Source: a virus. From it: DNA of 33,695 nt. Where the stretch lies: positions 1-33,695 of IMG/VR virus record IMGVR_UViG_3300047316_000734. The stretch is one strand, 5' to 3'. The notes beneath the pieces were generated by a model. The model saw only the letters and a program-made list of their open reading frames with translations. It had not been told where the DNA came from and did not search any database. The position numbers were made by a program, and so were the translations under genes. Shown in pieces: positions 641 to 28,136 of this stretch (position 1 is its first letter; each line of letters starts with the position of its first letter).

Positions 641-3169
641 TTACGGGTTGGAGTAGAGCAGGATATAGCCCGCCGTGACTCCGGCGGGATTCTTCACTTT
701 GAGCACGTCAGACCATCCTGACGGGTTGCTCGCGCCCATCAGTTCGGCGAGCCGGTATCCGTTGCCGGTGCTGCCCGCGATTATCAGTTCACCGCCGGCG
801 GTCACCTGCAGGAGCGTATGGTCCAAAAGATTCGAGCCAGGACCCGCCACCCGGAACGGCGACTCCGTGTTGTCCTTCGCCACAACCAGCAGCGCGCCGC
901 AGGCTACTCCGGCTGATACTGTCGAAGCCTGATAACCCCACGTCCTGGCATATGCTTTCTTCGAATCATTGCCCTGCTGAAGGCAACCGCCCCACGCATA
1001 GAACGACAGGCCGGAGGTCCAGCTGTCCGTGTAGTGACCGATTGCGACCCACAGCGCAGTTGCGCCGCCCGTCATCGTTCCCGCGATTTTGAACCGCTGC
1101 CAGGACGTCGTAAGCGTCACGGAGGTCGGACCCGCCAGCCACGTCGTCCATCCGTTATCGAGAACGCCCAGCGAGACTGTCATCGTTCCGCTGGCGACCC
1201 GCAGCCAGACGTAGAACGTATACTGGCCATTGGCCGCGAGGCCGGAGATGTTCTGCCGGATCAAGCCTGCCGCGCCGCTCGCTGTGACTGTGTCGGCGGT
1301 CTGGTTTCCATCGGGTGCCAGGACCGAATTTGCGGTCACCGTGCAGGTGCCCCCGTTCTTGTCCCAGGTGCTGACGCTGAAGTCTTCCGAGTACTTCAGC
1401 ATGTTCTCGTAGGGCGCGCCGACCGTCTGGAAAGCCCCGCACTCAACTGACTGGAGATGAGAGTCCGCATAGCCCCACAGGTTGTTGGCCGCGACGTAGC
1501 CGAAGTTCGCTCCCGCCGAGCCATCGCGCAGAACCACCGTGCTGGCGGTCGCGGCAGCGGTGGCGTCGGTGATCTGCGCGGATGTGTGGCTATGGACGCT
1601 CGCTGCCTTGCCGGCCAGATCGGTTACGAGGTTCGCGATGTCCGATTCGGCGTGGGTGTGCGCCGGAAGGTCCCCAGACAGCAGAGCGGCTACGGTGATC
1701 ACCGCGCCCGAACTCGCCTGCTTCAGGAAGCCTGGCCCTGTTGCCGCTAGCGTCGCCCCCGTGCCGCCACGTGCGACCGCCAGCAAGCCGGTGGTAAGTT
1801 TACTCGCGTCTAGGTTCGGAACGTCACCAGCCGCCAGTGCGGCCACTGTGACCGCCGCCCCCGTGGTCGCCTGTTTCAGGAAGCCGGGACCGGTCGCCGA
1901 CAGGTCGGCGGCGGCGCCACCACGCGCAAGAGCGAGTGTACCGGAGTTGATATCTCCTGCCGCATGGTTGTGGGTTGGGATGTCGCCGGCCGCGAGGGTG
2001 TCCCACGCAGGCAGCGCAGATATCGAGCCGTTCCCGGTCTGGCGCAGGAACTTCCTGGTGGTGGTTGTCTGGCCCGCCAGGCGCACCCAGGCTGGCGCGC
2101 TGGTGGCTGCGATCAGGTCACCCAGGACCGGCGCCGCCGCCACCGTGTCCGGATGCGTCGCTGACAGGAGGTTGTGGTTCGTCGGGCCTCCAGCCGCCGC
2201 GACAGTCACGTTCACGCGGTCGTTGCTTGCATCGTCTGCGACGGTGAGCGTCACATTTCCGCCTTCGATCAAGTTCACGGCACGGCGCGTCGCGATGGCA
2301 GCGCCGGCCTTCTGAATCATGAATGGCAGCGAACCCGAGACGATATCGGTGGCCACGTGGGTATGCGGCGGGATATCGCCGGCCACAAGCGACGCGCCAC
2401 CGGTCGCGCGGCCCTTTTGATCGACCGTGAGCTTGGTATAGGTGCCGGGGGTGACAGCGGTACTGGCGAGGCCAACCACTCCGGCAGCGACCACAAGGCC
2501 GCCGACTGAATCGATCTGAACAAGGCCCTTGGCAGTCGTCGTGGCGTCTGGATAAGAGAACGCGCCGAAGGTCTGGCCGGCCGCAAAGTCGATCACCGCG
2601 TCCATCGCGAGGTGGTTGCCGGCGTGCAATGCCAGCCCCAGGTCGCCCGAGTTGTCGGCCTTACGCCACTTGATGGCGCCAAGGTTGGGCAGGCGCAGGA
2701 GACCGGTGCTCGCGATGTTGCCAGTCCCAAACGCCGCGCCGTCCTGAAACGTCTTCACGCCCGTGATCGTCACCGCGCCGTTCTTCTGAACATAGTTCCG
2801 GGCGGCTGCGCTCCCCAGTTCCGTCTCGATCGCCACCACCGCGGACTGGACAGCGGTAATGAATCCGGCGACCATATTGGCCTGCACCGTCGCGCCGATA
2901 GCGTGGCTGGCTGCGACGGTGCCGAACGCGCCACGCTGACAACCGGTGAACTGTACACTGCTGCGTGCCGTGTAGATTACCAACTCGTCGTTGATCGACA
3001 AGACGCCATAGGCATCCGCAAAGCCGCCAGCGGTGGATGCCACGCTGATCGTTGAGTCGCCCACACCGATGGCAACCGTAGCGGTCGTTTCGAGCGGCTT
3101 TGTTGAGAACGCATCCACTGGCGAGTACAGCGTCGAAGCGCCGTCGATTGCTGCCGGGAAATTACTCAT
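641..3169 (-). CDS. Tail fibre protein with repeated shaft modules and a carbohydrate-binding-like domain (842 aa)
   Basis: This probable host-recognition fibre starts at ATG 3169, which has GAGG 7 nt upstream; the ATG at 3175 is too close to that GAGG. It overlaps the upstream tail gene by 8 bases. The N-terminal ~110 residues contain a module with INDELVIYTARS, typical of fibre attachment regions. The middle is Ala/Gly/Thr-rich with imperfect repeats carrying ARGG, ATGPGFLKQA and AGDIPTHNH/LPAHTHAESDI signatures (about 1630-2400). Residues ~590-735 (ENMLKYSEDFSVSTWDK onward) resemble a jelly-roll carbohydrate-binding module of phage fibres. The C-terminus is a short beta-rich tip. Trimeric fibre architecture is inferred from the repeats and gene order; the receptor is unknown. 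Confidence 0.8.
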   Translation of the reverse strand: MSNFPAAIDGASTLYSPVDAFSTKPLETTATVAIGVGDSTISVASTAGGFADAYGVLSINDELVIYTARSSVQFTGCQRGAFGTVAASHAIGATVQANMVAGFITAVQSAVVAIETELGSAAARNYVQKNGAVTITGVKTFQDGAAFGTGNIASTGLLRLPNLGAIKWRKADNSGDLGLALHAGNHLAMDAVIDFAAGQTFGAFSYPDATTTAKGLVQIDSVGGLVVAAGVVGLASTAVTPGTYTKLTVDQKGRATGGASLVAGDIPPHTHVATDIVSGSLPFMIQKAGAAIATRRAVNLIEGGNVTLTVADDASNDRVNVTVAAAGGPTNHNLLSATHPDTVAAAPVLGDLIAATSAPAWVRLAGQTTTTRKFLRQTGNGSISALPAWDTLAAGDIPTHNHAAGDINSGTLALARGGAAADLSATGPGFLKQATTGAAVTVAALAAGDVPNLDASKLTTGLLAVARGGTGATLAATGPGFLKQASSGAVITVAALLSGDLPAHTHAESDIANLVTDLAGKAASVHSHTSAQITDATAAATASTVVLRDGSAGANFGYVAANNLWGYADSHLQSVECGAFQTVGAPYENMLKYSEDFSVSTWDKNGGTCTVTANSVLAPDGNQTADTVTASGAAGLIRQNISGLAANGQYTFYVWLRVASGTMTVSLGVLDNGWTTWLAGPTSVTLTTSWQRFKIAGTMTGGATALWVAIGHYTDSWTSGLSFYAWGGCLQQGNDSKKAYARTWGYQASTVSAGVACGALLVVAKDNTESPFRVAGPGSNLLDHTLLQVTAGGELIIAGSTGNGYRLAELMGASNPSGWSDVLKVKNPAGVTAGYILLYSNP

Positions 3170-6100
3170 TGCCATGCCTCGTGTTGGCGCGGAACTGGTT
3201 CAACGCGCCGCCCGCCATCGGAACCATCGGTTGCAAAACCACCGTCTCAATGGCGCGCGCGGCGTTCGGCTTGAAGTACTGCGCGTTGCTCACTTGCAAC
3301 GATCCGGTCTGAAGGGGGACGGGCCGGGAGTTCAGGCAGAACTGGTCGAATGCCCAGAAACAGAACGAGTAGAGCTTCAGGCCTAGCCACATTCCGTAAG
3401 CCTGCGCCATGGGCGGATCCGGTGGACCGTACAGACCGGACAGGAACATGCACTCTGAAGCGGGACGCCCCAGCGTATCTTTGGCGAAGCCGATCACCTG
3501 GCGGATCAGCGGGGAGCTCTTCTGCCACACATCGTAGTCGAAGCCCTCCGACCGGAAATACTTAATCCCATAAGAGGAGTTCTTCCACTGGTTGGGCAGG
3601 TTCACGTAGAAGTTGAGCGCGCGAAATTTCGGGCTGGGCTTAGGCATCCCCTGGTTCGCATCGAGAGGCCACAGACACTCGAACACAGCGGTCGGATGGT
3701 ACGAGCGGACGTAGGTGATCACGTCCTGGCAATACGCCCAGATGCGGTCCCGCAAGAAGGCGGCGGTCTCGTTGGGGTGCGCCGGATCGCCGACCGGATC
3801 TTCAGTTGGCGCGCGGAATGGCCAAATCTGGTGGCCCTTCGCCGCGGCGAACTCACTGATCGTGTCCTGGTCATAGTAGGGCATCCCGCCGTGCGGGTCC
3901 GCTGCCGTGTTATCGAAGTACCACCACTGCGTCTCACCGAACTGGAGGATCACCGGCGCGCCCGCTGCCTCGATCTGGTCGGCGCACTCCTTGTACATCT
4001 GCCGGAGGTATGCCCGAACGCGTGTGCCGAAGTGCATTTGGTGCGAAGGAACGCCCAGGTCGACGTCCGCGCCTGGCGCAACGATGCCGCCGGTGTAGAA
4101 CAGATACTTTGCGCGCATCGCGGCCGGCGGCAGGTAGCACTCCATCGAGAACGCAAATGACGCTTTGATACCCGCCGCTTGGAACTGGCCGGCAAGGTCC
4201 TTGATCCACCGGCGCGCGCCTTCGGTCATGACCGGCGAGATACCGTCGATCATCTCCCAGGTTCCCTCCGTACCGGCGATGCCCATGTGATCGGAAAGCG
4301 TGAGCGTCACGGAGTTGGGCGCACTGACCGCGAGGCCGGTGAAGACCCACGACGGTGCCTTCGATTGGATGCGGAGCGTGGTGCTCGAACCGTAGTTGTC
4401 GTCGGCCCACACACCGGAGAACGTGCCGTTGATCGACGCCCGCACTTGGGCCACGATCTCCTTCAACGTTTCGCCATACCCGATGGCATGGGTGATTGTG
4501 GTCCCGCTGATTGCAATCGTCACGACGTCGCCGGCAGCAGGGGTGCCAGAGAAGGCTACCGTGGCGTACGGGTAGTTCGCGCCCACCCGACGCCGTTTGT
4601 TGTTCCAGAAGACACCCATGTACACATCGGCGTGGCCCTTGAAGCCGAGCTTCTGGAGTTGCCAGAGATGCCAGGCCGGAGGCTTCTTGTAGCCGTGGTC
4701 GGTGTCGAAGTCCAGAGCGAGTGAAACGTCCGAGTACACCTGGGGCGCGTCCGGGACGTCCTGCGGCACCAATGGCCAGAGGTAATCGAAATAGAAATAG
4801 TACCCCGTGCTGGCGGCGTTCTTGGTGAACGTGGCGGTGATCTGGACCACGTGCGTTCCGGCCGCGACGCCGCTTGCGAGCTTCACGCTCGCGTTGGTCC
4901 CGCCAAACTCATCCAGGTAGAGATCGAAAGGCGACCCGGGGAGCGCGAGGCCGTCAACGGACACCGCCACCATGCCGCAATCGACGTTCAAGAACGTACC
5001 GAGATAGAGGTCGTGCGTGGCATTCTGCGAATAGCGAAACGACGCCGTCCGGACATCCGTCAGGCTTGCCGGCGCAGTGCGCTTGCCGTGGCCGGTGCTC
5101 CACCACTGCGAGGGCCAGCCCGCCACGCCGTACTTATAGTCTTCCCAAAACCCGGTGTACTTGCACCGGGAGTCGCCTTCTTCGATCCTGTCCGCACCGC
5201 CGCCGACCTTCAGGCTGCCATCGCCAATGACAACGATGTTCGAGATCGTGCATCCCCATTCCACATCGCTGGAGAACCCGCTCACCGGCGAAAGCTTCTT
5301 CATGCGGACGCCCGCCGCCCAGGTGCCTGCCGTCGAAGACTGGTAGCCACGTTCGACGATGATCTGCGTGGGCGACGCCACCGACACGAGGCGCACTCGC
5401 TCCTCTGCGGTGGACGATCCGATGAAATAACGGTCGCCGGTGAGCTTCGAGGAATCGTCCACGCTCCACGCGGAAACGGCCGGCGTCACACCAGCGGTAA
5501 GGAAGCACCCGTCCTCCAGTTCGCCTTCGGCCTGCTCGAATCGAGGCGCGAAAACCATGTACATCTTCCGGCAATCGCTCATGGGAACAGCGACGCTGAA
5601 GCGATCAAGTATCGCTGCAGTGAAATCAAGCGTGATGTGGTACTTGGTGTCGTTGTCCCCGCCGGTGAACGGGATGCTCGTCCCGCTGCCGGCCGTCCAT
5701 TCAAAGCCCTGACCGGTGGTGACTGGCAGGCCAGCCAACGTGCGGCCGTGTACCACGAAGACGCGATCCTGGTTCCCGAGCTTTCCGTATCGCGCCGTCG
5801 CCCCACTCGCGGTGACGAAGGTGATCGTGATGCCGCCACTACTGGGCCCGCTGGCCCATGCGGTCGAGTGAATCACTCCGCTCTGGTCCGGACCGAACCG
5901 CCCGGCCACCGTCGCGCCTGCAGTGTTGATGATGTCAGCGAGCTTCCGAGCCACGTGCCACGCCTGCGTCTTGCGCGTCACGAACGAGCGGTTGCCGTGG
6001 CCCTCGGATACACTCGCGTGAAGCGTGCCGGTGCCTACGCCGATGACGGTAGTCTGCTCTTCGTTGGTGCCGGTTCGCTCAAGCCAGATGGTGTCCACCG

Positions 6101-6758
6101 CGGCGAAGCCCGCCGTGCTATCGACCGGCAGGCTTACAGCACCCGCGACCACGTCTGCCGTGAGTTGGGTTTCGACCCGGCAGTCCGAGGTCGCTACCGT
6201 GTAACGGGTGTCGCGGAAGTAGAGGTGCAGCCAATCGATGCCGCCGTCCATGTTCTCGTCGCCATCGAGATCGAGCACCACGCTGGCGGCGGTCTCGCCA
6301 CCGGAGACCACTGTTGCGTGGCCCAGCAACGGCACCTCGTGCACATCGCCCTTGCCGGTGACGAACGTCATGGCGTCCCAGGAGACGGACGGGTATTTGG
6401 CGGCGTCGAACCGCATGGAGCCGTCGAGCGCCTGGTCGTACTCGATATCGAATTCGAGTTTCAAGCCGGAGAGATCGGTCTTCGGCAGGTGGCGGCACCG
6501 CAGGTGGTTGTAGTAGTCGTAAGCATTCCACCAACCGAGCACTGCGAAATCTTCAGCCGCCTGGAAGATGCCGGAAATGGACACACCGGTCTCTGTGGCA
6601 TCGTGCATCGTGGTCGTCGCGGCGCGCCCGGTGAAACCTTGGGTCTGGAAGTTCCGCCGCGGATCGAAGATGTGAAGCGGTTCTAAAGACACAATTAATC
6701 GCTTGATCAGCCCACCAACGACGCTGGCATCGGTGGTCGAGAAGGATTCGAGTACCAA
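3162..6758 (-). CDS. Large tail protein with TIM-barrel (glycosidase-like) domain (1198 aa)
   Basis: A tail-tip or fibre-associated protein between the tail hub gene and the tail fibre gene. The N-terminal half is beta-rich and includes a jelly-roll-like segment around LPGSPFDLYLDEFGG. From about residue 660 a TIM-barrel-like region begins (LDFDTDHGYKKPP, WHLWQLQKLGFKG). It is interrupted by a beta insertion, then continues through RRWIKDLAGQFQAAGIKASF, VILQFGETQWWYF (Glu near residue 940), VFECLWPLDANQ and LYSFCFWAFDQFC. This resembles the TIM-barrel tail proteins of gene transfer agents and some siphoviruses. Glycan hydrolysis is possible, with the GET glutamate a candidate acid/base, but not shown. 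The start is TTG at 6758 with only a weak upstream GAGAG; an in-frame stop lies just upstream near 6795. Confidence 0.75.
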   Translation of the reverse strand: MVLESFSTTDASVVGGLIKRLIVSLEPLHIFDPRRNFQTQGFTGRAATTTMHDATETGVSISGIFQAAEDFAVLGWWNAYDYYNHLRCRHLPKTDLSGLKLEFDIEYDQALDGSMRFDAAKYPSVSWDAMTFVTGKGDVHEVPLLGHATVVSGGETAASVVLDLDGDENMDGGIDWLHLYFRDTRYTVATSDCRVETQLTADVVAGAVSLPVDSTAGFAAVDTIWLERTGTNEEQTTVIGVGTGTLHASVSEGHGNRSFVTRKTQAWHVARKLADIINTAGATVAGRFGPDQSGVIHSTAWASGPSSGGITITFVTASGATARYGKLGNQDRVFVVHGRTLAGLPVTTGQGFEWTAGSGTSIPFTGGDNDTKYHITLDFTAAILDRFSVAVPMSDCRKMYMVFAPRFEQAEGELEDGCFLTAGVTPAVSAWSVDDSSKLTGDRYFIGSSTAEERVRLVSVASPTQIIVERGYQSSTAGTWAAGVRMKKLSPVSGFSSDVEWGCTISNIVVIGDGSLKVGGGADRIEEGDSRCKYTGFWEDYKYGVAGWPSQWWSTGHGKRTAPASLTDVRTASFRYSQNATHDLYLGTFLNVDCGMVAVSVDGLALPGSPFDLYLDEFGGTNASVKLASGVAAGTHVVQITATFTKNAASTGYYFYFDYLWPLVPQDVPDAPQVYSDVSLALDFDTDHGYKKPPAWHLWQLQKLGFKGHADVYMGVFWNNKRRRVGANYPYATVAFSGTPAAGDVVTIAISGTTITHAIGYGETLKEIVAQVRASINGTFSGVWADDNYGSSTTLRIQSKAPSWVFTGLAVSAPNSVTLTLSDHMGIAGTEGTWEMIDGISPVMTEGARRWIKDLAGQFQAAGIKASFAFSMECYLPPAAMRAKYLFYTGGIVAPGADVDLGVPSHQMHFGTRVRAYLRQMYKECADQIEAAGAPVILQFGETQWWYFDNTAADPHGGMPYYDQDTISEFAAAKGHQIWPFRAPTEDPVGDPAHPNETAAFLRDRIWAYCQDVITYVRSYHPTAVFECLWPLDANQGMPKPSPKFRALNFYVNLPNQWKNSSYGIKYFRSEGFDYDVWQKSSPLIRQVIGFAKDTLGRPASECMFLSGLYGPPDPPMAQAYGMWLGLKLYSFCFWAFDQFCLNSRPVPLQTGSLQVSNAQYFKPNAARAIETVVLQPMVPMAGGALNQFRANTRHGNE

Positions 6759-6780
6759 GTACCCAAACCGAGCTCTCTTG

Positions 6781-6873
6781 GTTAGTCTTTGTTATTTTTT
6801 GTTGTGTACGTATGAAATCGTGTTAAGCTTTGTTTACGGCCATATAAAATAAAGGCCGACAAAGGACAACACC
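6781..6873 (+). promoter_or_regulatory. AT-rich leader and probable promoter of the plus-strand moron
   Basis: This short stretch is strikingly AT-rich against its GC-rich surroundings (runs such as GTTATTTTTTGTTG and CATATAAAATAAAGG). A TATAAA hexamer sits at 6843-6848, about 25 bases before the ATG at 6874, and AAAGGA lies 8 nt before that ATG. No convincing -35 hexamer is visible at 16-18 bp. The composition and position fit a private promoter for the inserted gene. Confidence 0.45.
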
Positions 6874-7521
6874 ATGAAACCAGTATGGAAACGACGGATT
6901 CCCGAGCATGGCACGAATTTTGACCTAGCCTTGGTAAATCCCGAGGACTTGGATCGGGAGCGCATGCACTACCTTCTTGAAGCAATCATGAAAGAAACCC
7001 ACCGGCGTCTGAGCTTGAGTGGTCGCGCATACCGGGAATTGAAAGCGTTTTTCGACAATCCGACCTCTCCTCTCAGGGCCTCTTCCTATGCACTCTTGAG
7101 CAACTGGTTCACGACCCGTGGCGGCGACAAGAACAGTACCGTCGCCAGTCGTTGCGAAGCGCTTTGGGACGAGATGTTTCCGTGCCGGCCGTTAGAAAGG
7201 CTCACCTCGCCAACGGCTGGGCAGAACCACATCGTTTTGCCGTCTGAATTTGCAAGCTTCTGGCCGCGCCTCTTGAAAGCGCAAGGCAACTCCGCTATGG
7301 CGACCTTTACCCATGACAGCGTGACGCTGAGCGCCGAGGCAGCGGACCCATCGCCAGTAGAGAATACGCGTCTCGCTGGCATACCTCCTTCTGGAGTGAC
7401 CGACGATAGCGGCGTCGTGCTTGCTGAAGGCGAGTCAATTCACGCAGTCATCACAAGAGATGGGATGCACATCGACGTAAAGGGAAGCCCCCAGGCAATC
7501 GCCAGTTTTCTAGATCACTGA
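6874..7521 (+). CDS. Uncharacterised plus-strand 'moron' inserted between two tail genes (215 aa)
   Basis: The only plus-strand gene within the whole tail region. It lies between the tail hub gene (ending 7684) and the TIM-barrel tail gene (starting 6758). AAAGGA is 8 nt before the ATG, and an AT-rich leader precedes it. Its codons are less GC-biased than its neighbours'. The protein opens MKPVWKRRIPEHGTNFDLAL, has a helical, Arg-rich N-terminal half, a Ser/Thr/Pro-rich middle and a beta-like C-terminus containing ESIHAVITRDGMHIDVKG. No signal peptide, membrane segment or recognised domain is seen. An autonomously expressed cargo gene of this layout often serves lysogenic conversion, superinfection exclusion or regulation, but no function can be assigned here. 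Confidence 0.65.
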   Translation: MKPVWKRRIPEHGTNFDLALVNPEDLDRERMHYLLEAIMKETHRRLSLSGRAYRELKAFFDNPTSPLRASSYALLSNWFTTRGGDKNSTVASRCEALWDEMFPCRPLERLTSPTAGQNHIVLPSEFASFWPRLLKAQGNSAMATFTHDSVTLSAEAADPSPVENTRLAGIPPSGVTDDSGVVLAEGESIHAVITRDGMHIDVKGSPQAIASFLDH

Positions 7522-7683
7522 CTAAAGAAGGTCGGCAGCTAACCGAAGCGATTCCAAAACATCGCAATCCTCGACCGTGAAGCCACAAGTGAGCAAGGGC
7601 CGTCGTTCATTCCGCGATATGGGTGACGGTCTTTGTGCTCGGGACGGATGGTGTTCTCGGAGAGTCCCGTGCGCTGTTCTCCG

Positions 7684-10600
7684 TCACGTTTGGATCACCA
7701 CGGTGAGGTCCGCGCCAGGATTCGGGGAGGCCACCGTTTTGATATCGAACGCCAGCACGTTTCCCTCGTTGAGAATCGGCGTCGGCCAGACGCACGGACG
7801 CAACCAGCACGCCGGATGGTTGTTCGTCACGATCGCGTCGAAAGTCTGGGCCGCGGCATCGACAGCCAGGATCTCTACGCACTCCTCGGTCGCACCGTTC
7901 AGGTCGAAGAAGACGAATCGGCCCACCTCGAGCCCGGTGGTCGAGGCATCATAAGACCCGGTGCTGATCGTCTGCACCGAACCGCTCCCCGTGATCGTGT
8001 TCAAACTCAGCAGGCCATAGTCCGCGTACGGCAGGCGGCGCGTCTCCGGCTTTCCATAACCCTGGTTGATCAGGAAATCGTAAGTGCTCTTGGCCCCGTC
8101 CGGAAGCATCTGCGCGATGCCCATCTTTTCGAGAATGTTCCAGGTCGCGCCCTCGTCGGTAGAGTACTTCACCACGTAAGAGGACTGCCCGTCCATCGTC
8201 ACCCCCTGCACGTAAGCGAACACACACCGGACGGAGGCCGCGTCGTGGATCTTCATCGGGATCGCAACGTTGTCCTGTGCGGAGAGCGCGCCCGCGATTT
8301 GGAACGTGTACGCGCCGCCAGAGCAAGTCCGGTCCCCTGGCATGAACGGTTCGTTATGGTGACCGCGCGCCCAGAACGTGAACGGCCCGTAGCCGAATTG
8401 GTTTGCCACGCCGACCGCCACGGAGACGACGCACACCGAAGGGATCTTCGCGTCGATCCTGGCTGGCAGTCCCGGCGTGCGGAAGAAGCCCTTCTTCACC
8501 GCCATGGTGAAGAGTTTCATGTCGAGCTTGTAGAAACGGACGTGCTCCAAGTGGGCGCACCGCATCGTTCCGAAGGTGGCTTGCCCTGCCGGCACACCCT
8601 GCCACGCGCGCGTGATCTCGAATGAGCCGGTCGGTACCACATCGCCGGTGGCTCCCGGACCCGTGATCTGGGCGCACTCATAGGAGCGCCGGCCCGGATT
8701 GTTCACGTCTTTGGCCTCGTCGTTAAAAACGATGAAGTCGCCGACCTTGAACACGCGCGCGGTGGCGGGGTTCACCGTGCAGTTCGCCGTAGCCGGATCG
8801 GTGGTGTCGTCGAGCGCGGCGTCAAGGCTTCCCCACAGATCAACGGCGAGCTCGTCCACGTAATACAGACCCATCGTGATCTCGGTCGCGCCCGTGATGT
8901 TCTCGTTGCCCGCCGCGTCGGCAAGCACCTCGATCTCGTCCACCACATATGACCCGTAATCCGTGAGTTTCGGCGTCCCGTTGACAATCCCAGGAACTCC
9001 CGTGTCATGGAAAACCTCCTCCGGCACCGGCGAGGCGTCGACATCGGCTGGCTTCGGCCCGTCGACGAGGTCGTACATTGAGTCCGTCGTGGTGCGGCCC
9101 TGAATATCGATCGAGTAATCCGGGTTGAGCTTCCAGCCGGTGACGCGGAACTCACCCAAGCCAGCAGGCATATCCGAATGGGTCATCGAGCAGACCATTC
9201 CCGGCTCTGTATTGAGCGCGAGGACGGTCGTCCGGAAGGAAAGCATGCGCGCGGCTTTCCACTCCGCGATGCTCGTTCCGCCCAATTCCTCGCGCAGCCG
9301 GGTGCTGATGATCCGCGCCGCCTGCGATTTCGAGAAGGTGCCAGAGAGGTTGACGTTCGACTTGAGGAACAGCGGTCCAGCCCCGCTGCCGATCTGAGAG
9401 GCGTAATCGATATCGTAGACGGTGACCGAGTTGTTGACGAAGGCATAATCCTCATCCGCGAAGTTGGCGGTCAGATGGTTGAACGCAGGTTTCAACGGTG
9501 ACAACTGAAGCGAGTTGAACAGGATGTTCCCGATGGTGAATGCTTCCACCGTGCTGCTGTTCTCGCGGATACCGATCTTCAGCCTGCCGAAGGCAAATGT
9601 GTAATAGCCCAGGCAGTTCATTAAGACTTCCTGTAGCCAGTCGCGAAGCGGCTTCTCCTCCTGGAGCACGCCGCGGAATTTGAACTGCGGCTCGCTGCCT
9701 GCGCCGACCATCTTCGTCACGCTGTCATTGCAGATCGCCGCCGCGTCGAGCGCGGCCTGCACGTCGAAGAACGTCTCTGCGAGATCCAACTGCGGAGTCG
9801 TGGCGGTCGCACCCAGCCGGAGGCCTCGCGCACGCAGCAGCATATTGACGGCGATCCACACCGGGTTCGTCAACGGCGGGCCAAAGGTCCGGACACCCAG
9901 GGAGGTCCAGACCCACCCGCTCATGCCCATCTGTACGTTGGCGACCATCGCGTGGTCGCCAGGCTTGGACAGTTGCAGGCCCTTCGCATCCGACCGGCGA
10001 ATGACCATGAACGCCGTTCCTGCCGCGAAGTTGTCCTTGTAGACCGACGATCCGGACAGCGCCTTCCGCCAGTCGCCGCCGGTGCTCTTGCCGGTTTGGT
10101 CGAGCGAGAAGAAATCTGTCGCACCTGCCGGATCCGCACCCAGGCACTGCCGCAGGCCGAACGAGTTGGTCGGGTAGCCGTGGTGCGCCTGCCCGTCAAG
10201 CGTGCTGCCAACGAATGTCTCGGCGTTTCCATCGCCGTCCAGGTCCTCGTAGTGCGGAGCGGTATAAGCGATGATCGGTCCTTCGCCGACGATGCCTAGC
10301 GCCTCGTAGAAATCGCTCTCGTCCCGGCCCGCCGCGACTTTGCAGTTCACCGGCATTTCGCTGTCGGTGTAAATCTCCGGAACGATCTGATCGTAGATCG
10401 AATCGGCCACCAGCGACGTGCTCGTGATCGTGGACCGCCCGAAGCCGAACACGCCGGTCGAGTTGTCCTTGATCGACACGCCCTGCGGCTCCGCGATCAG
10501 CCCGCCGTACGAGTGCTTCATGTGGTGCGCCAGGCAGCCGTTGGCGGTCTCGTATCCCTTGTCGCACTTCGAGGCGTCGGCGGACGGGAAGTGGACCAGA

Positions 10601-11538
10601 TCGAGAGATCCAGATGTGGAGTAAGGGCATGACTGCGAGTTGAAGACCTTCCAGCACGTGCGCGAGATCTTCCGGCATGGGTAGGGCAGGTTCAGTTCGT
10701 ACAGACCATCTGCGGCGGTGACTTTGAACTCCGGCCCGGAGTCGAACTGCCAATTGACGATATCGCCCTTCCACAGGTCGAGCTTGATCTTCGTGGCGAC
10801 GTGCAGGAGAGAGAACTCGATGGACGCGCGGAACAGATCCACATCGTTCGCGAGGTCCCGCATGACGCGGTCGGCGTTCCCGAAAGTGAACGTGGCGTCG
10901 TCGGCCTCGTTCCCCATGCTCTGCGAGATGCCATCGAAGGCCACAAGACGGGGAAGGTACAACTGCGCGCCGACAGTGCAGCGCCGGTCTGAGAGATAGA
11001 TCGCCGGGTAGCCTGCCTGAAGCGGCTTAAGCTTAATCAGTGGAATCATCTGCTGCACCTGCGGCAGCAGTGCGTCCTTGAGCGCTGCAGAAGGGAATCG
11101 GTTGAGGACCGTTACTGGCGTGTAAGTTGGGCTGGACGCCGGGATCTCGATCAGGGTAACTCCAATGCTACAGACCCAGTCGGCAACCATCTCCCAGGAC
11201 AGAGGCTCGTTAGCGAACCTGCAGGTGTACGCCGTCGTGCCGTTGCCATCGTCGTTTGGCGCATTGTAAGTGAACGCGCCGAACGGCCCGAACTTCGTTT
11301 CCCAGAAGTTCCGGAGGGCGATGCGCTGTGGGTCGTTCATCCACTGCCGGCGAATGGTGAATCGCTTCGCGCCGTCGCCCAGCATGAACCGCTGCTCGAT
11401 CTTCGCGTTGCCGGAACCGAACTGGTGGATGACCACGTCCGGATTGCTGGATCGTCCGAAAGGATAATCGGAAACGATAGGGAAGGTCCCGCTCGCGACG
11501 ATATCCGGAACGGTGATGTTGCCGATGAGATCAGACAT
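7684..11538 (-). CDS. Tail tip/hub protein: fused gpL-like and hub-like domains (1284 aa)
   Basis: A minor tail protein downstream of the tape measure, where tail-tip genes sit. Residues ~1-135 form a domain like small minor tail proteins (FWETKFGPFGAFTYNAP, ending VCSIGVTLIEIP). Residues ~150-345 resemble the DUF2163/BR0599-type or lambda gpL-type module. It includes a cysteine cluster at about 288, 295, 304, 325 and 335 (CRKISRTC, SQSCPY, KCDKGYETANGC) that could hold a metal or Fe-S centre as in gpL. The remainder (~430-1284) is a long beta-rich hub-like region ending in repeated fibronectin-like or distal modules. In lambda these jobs are split over several genes, so this looks like a fusion. 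Domain naming is from memory of the families; the metal site is inferred. Confidence 0.75.
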   Translation of the reverse strand: MSDLIGNITVPDIVASGTFPIVSDYPFGRSSNPDVVIHQFGSGNAKIEQRFMLGDGAKRFTIRRQWMNDPQRIALRNFWETKFGPFGAFTYNAPNDDGNGTTAYTCRFANEPLSWEMVADWVCSIGVTLIEIPASSPTYTPVTVLNRFPSAALKDALLPQVQQMIPLIKLKPLQAGYPAIYLSDRRCTVGAQLYLPRLVAFDGISQSMGNEADDATFTFGNADRVMRDLANDVDLFRASIEFSLLHVATKIKLDLWKGDIVNWQFDSGPEFKVTAADGLYELNLPYPCRKISRTCWKVFNSQSCPYSTSGSLDLVHFPSADASKCDKGYETANGCLAHHMKHSYGGLIAEPQGVSIKDNSTGVFGFGRSTITSTSLVADSIYDQIVPEIYTDSEMPVNCKVAAGRDESDFYEALGIVGEGPIIAYTAPHYEDLDGDGNAETFVGSTLDGQAHHGYPTNSFGLRQCLGADPAGATDFFSLDQTGKSTGGDWRKALSGSSVYKDNFAAGTAFMVIRRSDAKGLQLSKPGDHAMVANVQMGMSGWVWTSLGVRTFGPPLTNPVWIAVNMLLRARGLRLGATATTPQLDLAETFFDVQAALDAAAICNDSVTKMVGAGSEPQFKFRGVLQEEKPLRDWLQEVLMNCLGYYTFAFGRLKIGIRENSSTVEAFTIGNILFNSLQLSPLKPAFNHLTANFADEDYAFVNNSVTVYDIDYASQIGSGAGPLFLKSNVNLSGTFSKSQAARIISTRLREELGGTSIAEWKAARMLSFRTTVLALNTEPGMVCSMTHSDMPAGLGEFRVTGWKLNPDYSIDIQGRTTTDSMYDLVDGPKPADVDASPVPEEVFHDTGVPGIVNGTPKLTDYGSYVVDEIEVLADAAGNENITGATEITMGLYYVDELAVDLWGSLDAALDDTTDPATANCTVNPATARVFKVGDFIVFNDEAKDVNNPGRRSYECAQITGPGATGDVVPTGSFEITRAWQGVPAGQATFGTMRCAHLEHVRFYKLDMKLFTMAVKKGFFRTPGLPARIDAKIPSVCVVSVAVGVANQFGYGPFTFWARGHHNEPFMPGDRTCSGGAYTFQIAGALSAQDNVAIPMKIHDAASVRCVFAYVQGVTMDGQSSYVVKYSTDEGATWNILEKMGIAQMLPDGAKSTYDFLINQGYGKPETRRLPYADYGLLSLNTITGSGSVQTISTGSYDASTTGLEVGRFVFFDLNGATEECVEILAVDAAAQTFDAIVTNNHPACWLRPCVWPTPILNEGNVLAFDIKTVASPNPGADLTVVIQT

Positions 11539-11576
11539 GGCGCTATGCGGTGAGAGGAGCTTTGGGCTGGACGTGA

Positions 11577-11978
11577 TTACGCGAGTTCGATCAGTTCAAT
11601 CTGTGCGTCGGTCCTGCCGGGAGTGGCCGACTGCTCCCACGCGCCGTTGAACCGGACGATGTACCGGCCGACGGTGATCACGCCGGTGGGGTCGGACGAG
11701 AACTTCGGGCTGGTCTCATATGGGTCGTAGAAGAAGAACGCCTCGGACCCGCCGTGCCGTGCATCGTAAAAGTTCAGAAGGGTCTGAAGGAGCGTGGCCG
11801 GCAGACGTTTCGCCAGCCGCCACCGCTTCCGGCTGTTGGTTGCGAGCACCGAACGTTGCGACTCCCCGTTCTTGTACTCGTTCTCGATCATCGGGTACGC
11901 CCGCTCGTGCGCGAACGCCCGCGACAGGGATTGCGGCAGCACCGTGGCGGGCGCGGCGTTCTGAACGCTGCCTGGCAC
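11577..11978 (-). CDS. Minor tail protein, gpM/DUF2460-like (133 aa)
   Basis: The GTG start at 11978 shares one base with the tape-measure stop (TAGTG), so translation is likely coupled. The protein contains ERAYPMIENEYKNGESQRS, then LLNFYDARHGGSEAFFFYDP and VGRYIVRFNGAWEQ, and ends DAQIELIELA. This is the pattern of small beta-barrel minor tail proteins that connect the tube to the tip. The N-terminal domain of the next gene has the same organisation (FWETKFGPFGAFTY, YTCRFANEPLSW, GVTLIEIP), so the two may be paralogous ring proteins. The family assignment is moderate. Confidence 0.7.
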   Translation of the reverse strand: MPGSVQNAAPATVLPQSLSRAFAHERAYPMIENEYKNGESQRSVLATNSRKRWRLAKRLPATLLQTLLNFYDARHGGSEAFFFYDPYETSPKFSSDPTGVITVGRYIVRFNGAWEQSATPGRTDAQIELIELA

Positions 11979-14900
11979 TACGTCACCAAGGTCCCCGGGC
12001 TCAACTGGAGAGCGGTCATCTCCCGACGACCCGCGTTGCTCTTCATCGCGGAGAGCGCTCCCTGTGCCACCACGCGACCGTTTTGGATGACCACATTCCC
12101 GACTGCCTGCGAGTCAATGCTGAGCGGGATTACGATAGTGCCGCCCGCGTTCGACGCGGTGCCGCCGCCGACCGAATCGAGCGACGGCAGTCCCGCCAGG
12201 CCTGCGAGCGGAGTCCCGTTCTGGTACTGACTGGCTTGGAACAGCCCGCCACCCGTTTCAACCAGCGACAGTGGCGTCACGGCACTCGGCATGCCGGTGG
12301 GCTTTTGGCCGGTGGACATCGCGTACAACTGGATCAGGTCGCGAACTTGGGGGGAGCGGATCGCCAGGTCAAGGTTGCCGCCGAACGCGGATTTGGCGGT
12401 GTCCACGATTTGCTGGATCACTCCCTTGTCCGAGATATCGACGCCGTAGAGCGCCTTGACCTTGTCGCGCGCCTTCTCCGTTGCGCCCTTCACAAACAGG
12501 CGAACCATGCCTGCCAGGAATCCCACGCCTGCGCCGATGGCCGCGCCCAAGGGTCCGCCGAATTTTGCACCGATGAGCGCGCCGCCTCCGGTCGTCTCCG
12601 CGAGGCCAAGCTTGCCTCCGCGCCGGAGTCCGTCGAGAGCCAGCATCGCGCCCGCCGCCAGCATCGCGCCGCCTTTCATCCCGCCGATGCCTTTGGCGTC
12701 GGCGATCTTGGTCATATCGCCCGCCTCGTCCATCCTCCATCGCTCGGGTTTGAAGCCGATGTTGCCCAGTTGGGTGAGCACGCCCTTCCAGCCCGCAGCC
12801 ATTGCGCCGAAATTGAATAAGCCGCCAGCGGTGGCGCCCGACCCGCCACCAGCGGTCCCGGCGCCAGCCGCAACGCCGCCACCGCCACCACCACCCATTC
12901 CGGCAGCCGCCGCAGCGGAAAGAATCAGTGGGTTCCCTCCCATGGGTCCGGACATCGGGCCGCTGCTACCGCCGCCGCCCGTACCACCGAAGCCGCCCCC
13001 ACCGAAGATAGGGCTGGTACCGACGCCGAGAAGCCCGCCCAGGATGCCACCGCTGCCGCCGGCGCCAGCGCCGCCACCCGCGAACGACACCTTCTGCCCG
13101 GTGAACAGTTGCAGCAGCATGGCCGCGACGCGCGACGTCACTACATCCTTGATAGCGGTAAGGATCGCAGTCTTGAAGGAGTTCCCGATAGCCGCCCACA
13201 CCGACTGTGACTTCGTGACGAGAGCGTCGAAAACCCCGGCAGCCTGCTGCTTCAGTGAATCGAAGATGCTCTTGTAGTGATCGGTGACGAGCTTCCGAGT
13301 CTCGGCCGCGCCCTTCACCTGCGCGACATCGACCTCTGAGGCCGTCGCCTTCTGGAGCGCGTCCTTTTCCTGCTTGCCCAGATCCCGGACCTGGCTGGCC
13401 AGTTGATCGAGGTACGGTTGGTTGAAAATCCCCTGCGCCATCGCTGCCCGCTGCGCGGCAATCATCTGCCGTTCGGTGAGGAGATCGAGCTGTTCGATTT
13501 CGATCTTCGCCCGCTCCTTGATGGCGCGAACTTCGATATCGGTTTTCATCTGCTCGACGTGGACCTTGTCTTGCAGCGTGATCGCATCGATCTGCTCCAA
13601 TTGCGCCAATTCCAGGTTCTTGCGCTGCTCGACACCCTGGAGGCGCACGTTGAGGTTGCGGTCCTGCGCGGCCTCTCGCATCTGCTGGTCCTGTTGTTCC
13701 AGCCGCGTACGTTCCGCGATGGCGTCCTTCTCGATCGCGGTCTTCGCGCTTTCGATCTGGAGTTTCTGCTGCTCCGTGGTCGCGTTCAGCCCGGCGAGCG
13801 GAGCCAGTTGCGCTTTCCGGCGCTCTTCAACGGCTGCAACCATGGCGCCGCGGCTGTTCGGATCGACGACGTTGCCCTGCCACTGTGCCTGCTGTTCCCT
13901 GGTCGTGATCTCCGTCTCAAAGCGCCGCTGCGCCCGCGCCATCGCAGCCTGAAAAAGGGCGTCCAGCCGGCGACCCTCATCCTCATTCCACTTCTTGTCG
14001 AACGCCTCGATCTTGTCAGTGGTCGCCCGGTGCATGTCCGTGAGGGTCTTGTCGGTCAACGTGACGCGCCGAACCGCGCCGGTTTTGTCGTCGATACGCG
14101 TCCGCATCTTGTCGATCTCGCGCGTCTCCTCCTGCCGGAGTTTCAGTTCGCCGGCAGCCTGCGATTCGACCGCCAGCCGCTCTGCCCTCGTGGTTTCGAT
14201 GGTTGCCTGGGCCTCGCTGTTTGTGGCCGCGATGATCTTCATCGAGTCTTCCAGGCGCGCCCGTGCCAGATCCCTATCCGCGCCGGTGCGTTCCTCGGTC
14301 GCGCGCATGGCATAGTCGCTGGCTGTACGCTGGGCATCCAACGCTTGCTTCCGATCCGCAATCTGCGCCCGCAACTCGTCGTTGGTCGCCTCTTTCGGTT
14401 TCGGCTTATCGAGCCCGATCTTGAGTTTCCCGAAGCCCAGGTTCGAGAAGTCATCCCACTTCTGACCAGGTAGCATCCGCTTGCCGGAAACGATCTCCTT
14501 GATCTGGTCATCGCTGTAGCCCATCCTCTTCACGTCGTCGGCCTTGAGCTTGCCGGCGAACATCTGCTCTTGGATGCCCTTCCGCCGCATGTCCTCGTAG
14601 CCGCGCTCGAGGTTCGCCTGGGTATCGCTCCACTCCTTGTAGATGATCGCGCCGGCAGCCACCACGCCAGTGATCGCCAACGCCCAAGGGTTGAGCGCGA
14701 GCGCCAGGCTCAAACCCTCGACTGCCGTGGTGATCCCGATGATGGTCTCGGCGATCTGGTAGGTGACGAGCAGGCCGGCAGCGACACCGACCCCTTCCGC
14801 AAACCTGATCACGCCGTCCTTGTGCTCCTTCAACCACTTCACACCCTCGGTAAGCCAGTGGACCGTGTCCTTCAGCCAGACCACAAACTCTTTGCCGACC

Positions 14901-15673
14901 TCGTTCTTGAGCGATTCGATCTCACGAGAGAGCGCAGCCTCCTCGAACGCCAGACTGCCGGTCGCAGCAGCCGCCGACCCTTTGAGCTTTGCCGCCGCCT
15001 CGACGATGGCGTTGTACCGAACCTCCTTGACCTCGTTCTCATCGAGCGTCTTGCCGTGGAGTTGCGCCAGCAACTCCGCGTGCTCCGTGACCTTGTTCAG
15101 GTCGACGAAGATGTTCAGGCTTCGCAGGCCGCGCGACTGGCCGGTCTCGACAGCGCGGAGGATATCCTCCATCGCCTCGGCCGCTTTGACACCGGTCGTG
15201 CTGAAGGCCGCCGCGTCCTTGGCCATCTTCGCCAGACCCTGCGACTTCCCAAGTCCCAACTCCGAGACGATCAATTTCTGAACCGCGCCCTGCGCTTCCT
15301 CAGTGGTGTAGCCGATTTTCTTGATGGCCTCGACCGCGCCCAGCGCTGCCTCGTCGGCGATGCCAAAGGACTTCGCGACGGTCTTCGTGACCGCTTCCAT
15401 GCGCTCCAGGTTTGCCGCCGACCGGGCCGCTTCGATGGTCCACTCCTTGACCCACTCGACGACCTTCTTCAGCCCTTCCACCAGGAGCTCTCCGGCCGCC
15501 ACGCCCTTGGCCATGCTCCTCGTCATGGCGTCGATCCCACCGGACGCGCCGGCACCGGCCTTCACCGCTGCCTGCTCCATACCGGACGGACCCGAATTGA
15601 TGCTCTTGATAGAGGCGTTCGCCTTGTTGACGTCCACCTCCACGACCAATTCGAGCTTGTTGTTGTCAGCCAT
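11978..15673 (-). CDS. Tail tape measure protein (1231 aa)
   Basis: This sets tail length and is ejected during DNA entry. It is the longest uniformly helical protein after the tail chaperones, as expected for a tape measure. The N-terminal ~280 residues are Ala/Lys-rich (MADNNKLELVVEVDVNKANA and AANLERMEAVTKT). A hydrophobic stretch at about 294-344 (LNPWALAITGVVAAGAIIY) could insert into membrane. Residues ~430-800 are charged heptad-like coiled coil with many ERTRLEQQDQQM-type runs. At about 860-950 there is a very glycine-rich linker. Another hydrophobic Gly/Ala segment (GGPLGAAIGAGVGFLAGMV) follows. The start overlaps the GT-frame gene by 8 bases; it has only a weak GGGA before the ATG. 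Confidence 0.9.
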   Translation of the reverse strand: MADNNKLELVVEVDVNKANASIKSINSGPSGMEQAAVKAGAGASGGIDAMTRSMAKGVAAGELLVEGLKKVVEWVKEWTIEAARSAANLERMEAVTKTVAKSFGIADEAALGAVEAIKKIGYTTEEAQGAVQKLIVSELGLGKSQGLAKMAKDAAAFSTTGVKAAEAMEDILRAVETGQSRGLRSLNIFVDLNKVTEHAELLAQLHGKTLDENEVKEVRYNAIVEAAAKLKGSAAAATGSLAFEEAALSREIESLKNEVGKEFVVWLKDTVHWLTEGVKWLKEHKDGVIRFAEGVGVAAGLLVTYQIAETIIGITTAVEGLSLALALNPWALAITGVVAAGAIIYKEWSDTQANLERGYEDMRRKGIQEQMFAGKLKADDVKRMGYSDDQIKEIVSGKRMLPGQKWDDFSNLGFGKLKIGLDKPKPKEATNDELRAQIADRKQALDAQRTASDYAMRATEERTGADRDLARARLEDSMKIIAATNSEAQATIETTRAERLAVESQAAGELKLRQEETREIDKMRTRIDDKTGAVRRVTLTDKTLTDMHRATTDKIEAFDKKWNEDEGRRLDALFQAAMARAQRRFETEITTREQQAQWQGNVVDPNSRGAMVAAVEERRKAQLAPLAGLNATTEQQKLQIESAKTAIEKDAIAERTRLEQQDQQMREAAQDRNLNVRLQGVEQRKNLELAQLEQIDAITLQDKVHVEQMKTDIEVRAIKERAKIEIEQLDLLTERQMIAAQRAAMAQGIFNQPYLDQLASQVRDLGKQEKDALQKATASEVDVAQVKGAAETRKLVTDHYKSIFDSLKQQAAGVFDALVTKSQSVWAAIGNSFKTAILTAIKDVVTSRVAAMLLQLFTGQKVSFAGGGAGAGGSGGILGGLLGVGTSPIFGGGGFGGTGGGGSSGPMSGPMGGNPLILSAAAAAGMGGGGGGGVAAGAGTAGGGSGATAGGLFNFGAMAAGWKGVLTQLGNIGFKPERWRMDEAGDMTKIADAKGIGGMKGGAMLAAGAMLALDGLRRGGKLGLAETTGGGALIGAKFGGPLGAAIGAGVGFLAGMVRLFVKGATEKARDKVKALYGVDISDKGVIQQIVDTAKSAFGGNLDLAIRSPQVRDLIQLYAMSTGQKPTGMPSAVTPLSLVETGGGLFQASQYQNGTPLAGLAGLPSLDSVGGGTASNAGGTIVIPLSIDSQAVGNVVIQNGRVVAQGALSAMKSNAGRREMTALQLSPGTLVT

Positions 15674-26906: not shown

Positions 26907-26925
26907 GACCGGAGTGATCAATCGT
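26907..26925 (+). repeat. 19-bp repeat copy 1 (GACCGGAGTGATCAATCGT)
   Basis: An exact 19-bp sequence centred on the palindrome TGATCA, 40 nt before the DUF3489 gene start. The identical sequence occurs upstream of the next plus-strand gene at 27499. Both are also preceded by CCTTGC within 5-10 bases. Function unknown: operator, promoter part or recombination site are options. Confidence 0.75.
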
Positions 26926-26965
26926 CATGTACGAAGCAGCCAGAAAAAGGAAAACAGGAGCAAGT

Positions 26966-27418
26966 ATGAAAACCGAAACAGAAGCCACCGCCACCGAGAC
27001 CAAAGAGACCGCCGCCGTTGCGGAGCAGGGCGCGCCCACCGCGCCGAAGAAGACGTCCTCGAAGAAGGGCACCAGCAAGAATGCCGACGCGCCCAAGGCC
27101 AAGAAGGCCGCCAAGACCGCCGCCCCGAAGAAGGAAGCGAAGACCGCGCCAAAGAAAGTGGCCAAGAAGAAGGCCGAAACCAGCCAGAAAGCGCCGAAAT
27201 CCGCTGCGGTGCCGCGCGAATTCTCGAAAAAGAGCATCGTTATCGATCTCCTGCAACGCAAAGGCGGCGCGACGATGGTCGAGATCGCCAAGGCAACCGA
27301 CTGGCAGAAACACAGCATCCGGGGCTTCATTTCCGGCCAACTGACCAAGAAAATGGGCCTCACCGTCGAATCCAGCAAGAACGAAGCTGGCGAGCGGACC
27401 TACAAGTTGGCAAAGTAG
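26966..27418 (+). CDS. DUF3489 protein with Lys/Ala-rich histone-like N-terminus (150 aa)
   Basis: First plus-strand gene of the pair. AGGAG lies 5 nt before the ATG at 26966 (MKTETEATATETKETAAVAE). The N-terminal ~75 residues are a repeated Lys/Ala/Pro tail (SSKKGTSKNADAPKAKKAAK) similar to histone H1-like tails. Residues ~85-150 are a compact helix-turn-helix-like DUF3489 domain: SKKSIVIDLLQRKGGATMVE, IAKATDWQKHSIRGFISGQL, KKMGLTVESSKNEAGERTY. It is found next to DUF2924 and serine recombinases in mobile elements. DNA compaction or accessory recombination function is inferred. A second start at 26927 is less likely. Confidence 0.8.
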   Translation: MKTETEATATETKETAAVAEQGAPTAPKKTSSKKGTSKNADAPKAKKAAKTAAPKKEAKTAPKKVAKKKAETSQKAPKSAAVPREFSKKSIVIDLLQRKGGATMVEIAKATDWQKHSIRGFISGQLTKKMGLTVESSKNEAGERTYKLAK

Positions 27419-27431
27419 GTCCCACCCACCG

Positions 27432-27460
27432 CGCCGCCATTCCTGAGAGTGGCGGCGTTT
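27432..27460 (+). terminator. Intrinsic terminator after the DUF3489 gene
   Basis: An 8-bp perfect stem CGCCGCCA / TGGCGGCG (27432-27439 with 27450-27457), 10-nt loop, followed by TTT. It begins 13 bases after the stop codon of the DUF3489 gene and ends before the second repeat and gene. Confidence 0.7.
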
Positions 27461-27498
27461 CAGCATCTGGCCGCGCTTATTCCCTTGCATCGGGGGCC

Positions 27499-27517
27499 GA
27501 CCGGAGTGATCAATCGT
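27499..27517 (+). repeat. 19-bp repeat copy 2 (GACCGGAGTGATCAATCGT)
   Basis: Identical 19-bp copy of the repeat at 26907, located between the terminator of the first plus-strand gene and the start of the second (18 nt before the ATG at 27536). AAGGAG lies just after it. The spacing to the start differs from copy 1, so it is not simply part of the ribosome-binding region. Confidence 0.75.
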
Positions 27518-27535
27518 GATGCAAGGAGAACGAGC

Positions 27536-27844
27536 ATGAAAGCAGCCAGCAGGAAGCAACAGAGACCCACCACCCCAGGATTTGCCATCGTAATCAAGGA
27601 CGACACCGAATTGGGCCTCGCGACGCTGATCGCGGAATCCGAAGAAGGCCAGTATCAGCCCATCGGCGTAGTCATAAGCATCAACGAGGCGCGCGAGATC
27701 GCGCAAAGCGACCTCCGGATGCGGATGAAGGATCTCGAACGCGGTGGCGATCCTGGCATGTGCCCCTACTCCTACAAGGTCTGGGCGCAGGGACTCGAAG
27801 GAACCTACCGCGTCGCCGCCGAGATCCTGGCTACCAGCCTGTAG
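27536..27844 (+). CDS. Hypothetical protein of phage/mobile element type (102 aa)
   Basis: AAGGAG lies 7-8 nt before the ATG at 27536. Sequence begins MKAASRKQQRPTTPGFAIVI, with GVVISINEAREIAQSDLRMR and MCPYSYKVWAQGLEGTYRVA. It is a small alpha/beta protein with no membrane segment. The arrangement (INEAREIA then DLRMRMKDLERG then MCPxxYxVWAQG) looks like a conserved family of small accessory proteins of mobile elements; I know no function. It follows the DUF3489 gene with its own repeat and ends at its own terminator. Confidence 0.65.
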   Translation: MKAASRKQQRPTTPGFAIVIKDDTELGLATLIAESEEGQYQPIGVVISINEAREIAQSDLRMRMKDLERGGDPGMCPYSYKVWAQGLEGTYRVAAEILATSL

Positions 27845-27870
27845 GAACCACCTTGACCGCACCGCACCGC

Positions 27871-27901
27871 AGCCGCCAGCATCCATTTGCTGGCGGCTTT
27901 C
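27871..27901 (+). terminator. Strong intrinsic terminator after the second plus-strand gene
   Basis: An 11-bp perfect stem AGCCGCCAGCA / TGCTGGCGGCT (27871-27881 with 27888-27898), 6-nt loop, followed by TTCCC. It lies 27 bases after the stop codon, between two convergently read genes. Confidence 0.75.
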
Positions 27902-27902
27902 C

Positions 27903-28136
27903 CTATTTGGGGGCAGCGTCCGGAACGGGCGGCAGCAACGCCACCAGGAACTCCGCGATGCACGCCTTCCACGTGTTTCCCACGCACTCGTCCATCACAT
28001 CGAAGGGCGCGGTGGCCACATCGATACCCTGTTGGCGGGCGAGGTAGATCAACGCCGCGAACGACTGATCGGCCAAAGACTGCAGGTGCGGCGCGACGCG
28101 CCGATCGTCACAATGATCAGACCACTGGGATTCCAT
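27903..28136 (-). CDS. Small hypothetical protein (77 aa)
   Basis: Minus-strand gene overlapping the methyltransferase 3' end by 20 bases, with AGAGG about 6 nt before its ATG at 28136. The protein has LADQSFAALIYLARQQGIDV in a likely helical core and ends CIAEFLVALLPPVPDAAPK. No recognised family. Translation appears coupled to the upstream gene. It ends opposite the terminator of the plus-strand pair. Confidence 0.5.
   Translation of the reverse strand: MESQWSDHCDDRRVAPHLQSLADQSFAALIYLARQQGIDVATAPFDVMDECVGNTWKACIAEFLVALLPPVPDAAPK

Follow-up and report, generated by a model that had tools for sequence, protein, structure and literature searches.

Here, we identify the junction between two tail genes, J and N, as a variable cargo slot in phages of Acidobacteriota, and we propose that the window (the whole virus record analysed, 33,695 bp, which may be a fragment of a phage) contains one occupant of this slot. 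In this proposal, the segment at 6693-7683 (991 bp, low in GC) would be one of the exchangeable cargoes of temperate Acidobacteriota (Bryobacterales) phages, and its single gene, which encodes a 215-aa protein (6874-7521, plus strand, ATG start; based on the ORF listing and homologue alignment), would be a moron with its own leader, from which transcription runs opposite to the late operon. We suggest that this gene is active in the lysogen, when the late genes are off, that its product may be a small cytoplasmic protein acting as a single-gene defence of the lysogen against other phages, and that the cargo could be swapped by recombination between the conserved flanking genes. As a whole, we hold this explanation with moderate confidence.

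A variable junction in the tail operon

In the window, the slot is bounded upstream by J (7684-11538, minus strand; 1284 aa, phrog_31-like, central tail fibre J) and downstream by N (3162-6692, minus strand; phrog_6040 with a TIM-barrel region). A mechanical ORF call placed the start of N at a TTG at 6758. This start was rejected because synteny with relatives gives a GTG at 6690-6692; therefore, the foreign segment extends from the J stop to the N start, i.e., from 6693 to 7683, an interval of 0-5 bp in empty relatives.

For comparison, 96 loci were retrieved from viral contigs by scans with J and N, and 61 from named genome assemblies by J alignment. The assembly loci are almost all from Acidobacteriota (Bryobacterales, Solibacteraceae, Paludibaculum, Sulfopaludibacter), and the hosts are Acidobacteriota (Bryobacterales). 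Many loci sit in bacterial genome assemblies. Because an integrase above the cut-off is present in 10 of 20 relative records, we conclude that these phages are temperate, which supports the lysogen setting envisaged in an earlier reading of this DNA from its letters alone (hereafter, the sequence-only reading).

The main clade, with identical slots removed, comprises 73 measurable slots. Nineteen of these are empty, with the N start codon 0-5 bp after the J stop; the remaining 54, window included, hold 165-5615 bp (median 1.1 kb), and no slot lies between empty and 165 bp. The sequence-only reading had proposed to compare prophages with and without the insertion, and this split into abutting and occupied junctions is what it predicted; the same gene at this place in all relatives would have spoken against it, and no relative carries the cargo gene there. 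The cargo sorts into 43 groups by DNA similarity (blastn) and into 47 by protein comparison (ORFs of at least 90 aa). In 53 of the 54 inserts, the GC content is below that of the flanking J gene, with a mean difference of −7.3 points. Exchange appears at short evolutionary distances: the J genes of L016 (empty) and L025 (2143 bp of cargo) are 95.5% identical at the DNA level, those of L062 (empty) and L013 (2010 bp of cargo) are 93.1% identical, and cargo differs between contigs with 91-96% identical J genes. The slot is specific, because in these phages the N-P junction is invariably tight. J-N as the sole variable junction was rejected, because the g3-g4 and g4-J junctions vary too.

Occupants were identified with Pfam and PADLOC. 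Inside the tail operon, L068 carries a complete-looking two-gene CBASS (L068:7357-8907) with a Cap15-type 2TM effector (7e-70) and a CD-NTase cyclase (2e-123). Other occupants are a Lit/Peptidase_U49 protease (L007, 7e-58), GmrSD/HEC-06 (L083, 8e-103), a CAP12/Pycsar-type TIR protein, PDC-S35 (L030, 8e-74), a Schlafen-group-3 helicase, PDC-S41 (L105, 3e-188), and AIPR/AbiU (L050; AIPR 2e-24, AbiU 4e-16). The closest genome relative of the window (L098, 85% in J) has a TIR_2 protein in the slot, and among the closest relatives are also loci with HNH (L033), an NDT-like plus HTH-like pair (L002), and a kinase plus NDT-like protein (L036). The slot further holds AlbA_2 plus HATPase (L013), an HD/dGTPase-like protein with a partner (L041), DUF4238 (L023), NYN (L079), HicAB toxin-antitoxin (L153), and a CopG-type antitoxin on the opposite strand (L084). 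Cargo of other kinds comprises a MerR-type (metal-type) operon (L065), a LinB-like nucleotidyltransferase (L012), and a PadR-like plus permease pair named by inspection only (L099), and many occupants have no recognised identity. The commonest cargo by DNA similarity (L011, L073, L078, L082, L084, L089, L095) is probably a toxin-antitoxin pair and its remnants, because the L084 copy includes the CopG-type antitoxin.

The cargo is thus enriched in defence genes: ~6 occupants are strong cases, and roughly 13-15 carry some defence or toxin-antitoxin domain. In a control with ten other window genes, PADLOC matched only one, a DNA methyltransferase (28117-29463, minus strand; PADLOC MTase_II 9e-166, with the orphan MTase model also matching) upstream of the structural genes. 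Domain-bearing cargo lies on the opposite strand more often than on the same strand (16 to 6, p 0.05), which is suggestive of an orientation bias. J-N resembles a prophage antiviral hotspot in being a locus between two conserved phage genes that is empty in some phages and holds unrelated cargo with high turnover in others.

Variation was also seen elsewhere in the tail operon. The junction between g3 (11978-15673) and g4 (11577-11978) measures 2-15 bp in many contigs, but in others (L012, L017, L008, L035, L020) it contains cargo, making it a second cargo slot; its cargo consists of opposite-strand genes, and in L020 includes an 88-aa ORF that by eye resembles a BrnT toxin. The g4-J junction (11538-11577 in the window) is very variable in relatives, ranging from 0 to 5.1 kb, and contains repeated sets resembling modular virion genes together with occasional cargo. 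In the window, the g3-g4 junction is empty and the g4-J junction nearly so (about 40 bp). N itself is mosaic, in that many relatives (e.g., L065-L089) align best only over its first ~190-211 residues, at 45-50% identity, and others align over its full length. Further upstream, the gene at 26918-27886 (minus strand) has an unusually low GC3 of 0.557 versus about 0.8; it may have been acquired recently as well, or its frame may be called wrongly.

The cargo gene and its protein family

The sequence-only reading described a complete 215-residue gene with an AT-rich leader, inserted between tail genes on the opposite strand. This description is accurate: J and N are both on the minus strand, the cargo gene is on the plus strand, and its leader (6781-6873) has a GC content of 35.5% and a Shine-Dalgarno sequence, AAAGGA, at 6861-6866, 7 nt before the ATG. 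The gene lies between genes that are adjacent in relatives, and its composition is unlike that of its neighbours (GC 0.557; GC3 0.616, versus 0.77-0.85 in 12 of 13 other window genes tested), as the claim of an AT-richer gene had implied. The accompanying statement that it opposes more than 25 kb of structural genes fails for part of that stretch, which includes, e.g., the non-structural DNA methyltransferase. The weak ribosome site ascribed to N is correct by eye. As for the suggestion that the insertion disrupted the native leader of N, the insert does remove the direct J-N junction, and a plausible coupling would be broken with it: because the N start codon lies 0-5 nt past the J stop in insert-free relatives, translational coupling from J to N is plausible there.

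The leader probably contains the cargo gene's own promoter. No strict sigma-70 promoter consensus and no strict terminator were found for the cargo gene, and terminator-like sites are no more frequent than at shuffle level. A hairpin with an 18-bp stem lies at 7593-7636 (plus strand), where the 3' ends of the cargo gene and J face each other. It is not followed by a T run, the folding energy of the region is ordinary (z −1.34), and no copy is present in other loci; it is possibly a two-way terminator that would stop transcription from both sides. A common integration sequence in the leader or 3' region was rejected, as neither has copies elsewhere, and an Rfam search gave no match.

In agreement with the earlier view that the protein has no recognisable domain, searches of Pfam, PHROGs, NCBIfam, PADLOC and PDB gave nothing convincing for it, and no PADLOC or Pfam profile of a known defence protein family matches it. 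A PCNA-like identity from the PDB sequence search was rejected, as the matches are at chance level. Exact-peptide scans of viral and genome collections with the window protein, and tblastn of phage and plasmid collections, returned nothing; relatives came only from a six-frame search of Acidobacteriota genomes and then from a scan with the homologue found in this way. The six-frame search identified a homologue, G149 (49% identity, E 1.3e-57), that is solitary on an Acidobacteriota chromosome, where its neighbours are cation-efflux-like and HIT-like (names by inspection) and form no defence island. The scan with this homologue identified a third member, 58% identical to the G149 protein, in viral contig IMGVR_UViG_3300041409_000894 (L178), a phage of another type in which the gene lies between replication-like genes and the packaging module and has its own leader with TTGACA. 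The window protein thus has two distant homologues, at about 45-49%. Weak matches in other genomes (E 0.0004-0.3) are in many cases broken by stops, and the 1,478 genomes and records searched, all from Acidobacteriota, contained no further convincing member. Because one homologue is chromosomal and the other belongs to an unrelated phage, we conclude that this is a real, mobile single-gene family.

In the three-sequence alignment, a variable linker separates a conserved region of ~138 residues from a C-terminal GxHxxVxGS..A.A.FL motif; H43, C94, C104 and the N118-H119 pair are invariant. In low-confidence models, the conserved N-terminal region (~1-138) is predicted to be helical and the conserved C-terminal motif (~189-213) to form strand-strand-helix. 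Our guess is that this arrangement fits a sensor or effector pair. Two AlphaFold structure predictions have a mean pLDDT of 46 and 47, and because neither model is usable, the structure-based fold searches, which gave no match below E 0.4, carry no weight. The protein has no transmembrane or signal segment (top 19-residue hydropathy 0.68) of the kind expected of a membrane superinfection-exclusion protein; lacking a long hydrophobic stretch, it is therefore probably cytoplasmic.

Candidate functions of the cargo gene

Following established reasoning on morons, an opposite-strand gene with its own leader can be expressed in a lysogen independently of the late operon, which would be silent there. 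By its location, the cargo gene is most likely a lysogen-expressed anti-phage cargo. Defence is the most probable function because many recognised occupants of the slot are defence genes, and we regard defence of the lysogen as fairly probable. The sequence-only reading had guessed at defence, exclusion or regulation, and this guess gains support from the CBASS, Lit, GmrSD, TIR, Schlafen helicase, AIPR and HicAB genes in the same slot. Several observations count against defence: the 215-aa protein matches no defence family, the slot also takes non-defence cargo (L065, L099, L012) and several occupants without recognised identity, and the chromosomal homologue is solitary rather than in a defence island. 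The lack of a strict promoter or terminator and the untrustworthy predicted fold count against the explanation as a whole. More tentatively, the protein may found a single-gene anti-phage family with a mechanism unrelated to described systems, in an undescribed Acidobacteriota tail-operon hotspot; we rate this extended claim as possible.

The solitary chromosomal homologue, together with the metal-type and permease genes in other slots, would also fit a host gene caught in a permissive slot, whether of metabolic or stress-related benefit to the lysogen or of none. Such a non-defence passenger is unlikely, given that the family is very rare among hosts, with one clear match in the 1,478 Acidobacteriota genomes and records, that it occurs in two unrelated phages, and that the cargo gene is GC-poor, unlike a core host gene. 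Palindromes in the homologues' leaders raise the alternative of a DNA-binding regulator acting on its own leader or on immunity in related phages (superinfection immunity). In L163, upstream of 1504, a perfect, operator-like palindrome, ATTGATAA-TGC-TTATCAAT, lies just before the chromosomal homologue, and the leader of the L178 homologue contains ATGAC-N7-GTCAT (both by eye); the predicted helical N-terminal part would be compatible with this function. However, the two palindromes have no common sequence, Pfam, PHROGs and NCBIfam yielded no HTH or repressor match, and in L178 the gene lies apart from the integrase end, so that we consider a regulator quite unlikely.

Less probable again is a part in a toxin-antitoxin or addiction system by which the prophage would be stabilised: in relatives, this slot also takes HicAB and a CopG-type antitoxin, but neither the insert nor the surroundings of the chromosomal homologue contain an evident partner ORF for this single gene, and 215 aa is large for an antitoxin. 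Finally, the position in the tail operon might suggest a structural part of the virion, or the frame might not be translated at all, an outcome against which the sequence-only reading had asked to be judged. Shuffling single bases of the insert gave an equally long open frame in only 2 of 500 cases. The frame is kept in both homologues and third codon positions differ ~2x as often as first or second positions; therefore, it is translated and under selection. Moreover, none of the relatives that retain the tail genes has the cargo gene, and this gene lies on the opposite strand to the tail genes. Accordingly, we regard an untranslated frame or a virion component as highly improbable.

Relation to known morons and prophage hotspots

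In lambdoid and other temperate phages, morons are extra genes with deviating GC content and their own leader that lie between genes adjacent in relatives. The cargo gene resembles them in all three respects; it differs in that its protein family is undescribed and in that promoter, terminator and lysogen expression are here putative. Because many occupants of the slot are recognisable defence systems, the unrecognised ones, the cargo gene included, make up a short list of testable candidates, and soil phages can be mined for defence genes simply by reading the DNA between J and N.

Earlier surveys (PMC11924767, PMC5900883) covered prophages of Acidobacteriota, a Bryobacterales group among them. 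The phages described here share host order, temperate lifestyle and soil origin with the Bryobacterales proviruses, group (i) of the survey of Tunturi virus isolates (PMC11924767), and the lineages possibly overlap. The available portion of that survey describes no accessory hotspot in these proviruses, and the word "hotspot" is absent from it. Because the available portions of both surveys describe none, the J-N slot is, as far as checked, a new hotspot of the prophage-defence type, and the 215-aa protein is, to the same extent, an undescribed family within it.

Defence hotspots between conserved prophage genes have been described in P2/P4-like, Vibrio K139-like and Bacillus prophages (Rousset et al. 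2022, PMC9122126); the P2 and P4 hotspots adjoin cos, and the Vibrio hotspot lies between cI and the integrase gene (PMC9122126). The J-N slot shares with these hotspots a locus of 1-5 kb between two conserved genes of temperate phages, high turnover, and diverse anti-phage systems. In contrast to them, it separates two tail genes of Acidobacteriota prophages that otherwise abut and are probably translationally coupled, its cargo often runs opposite to the tail genes, and cargo also enters at least one further junction of the tail operon. J-N thereby extends prophage defence hotspots to a dominant soil phylum with hardly studied phages and to a site within the late tail operon.
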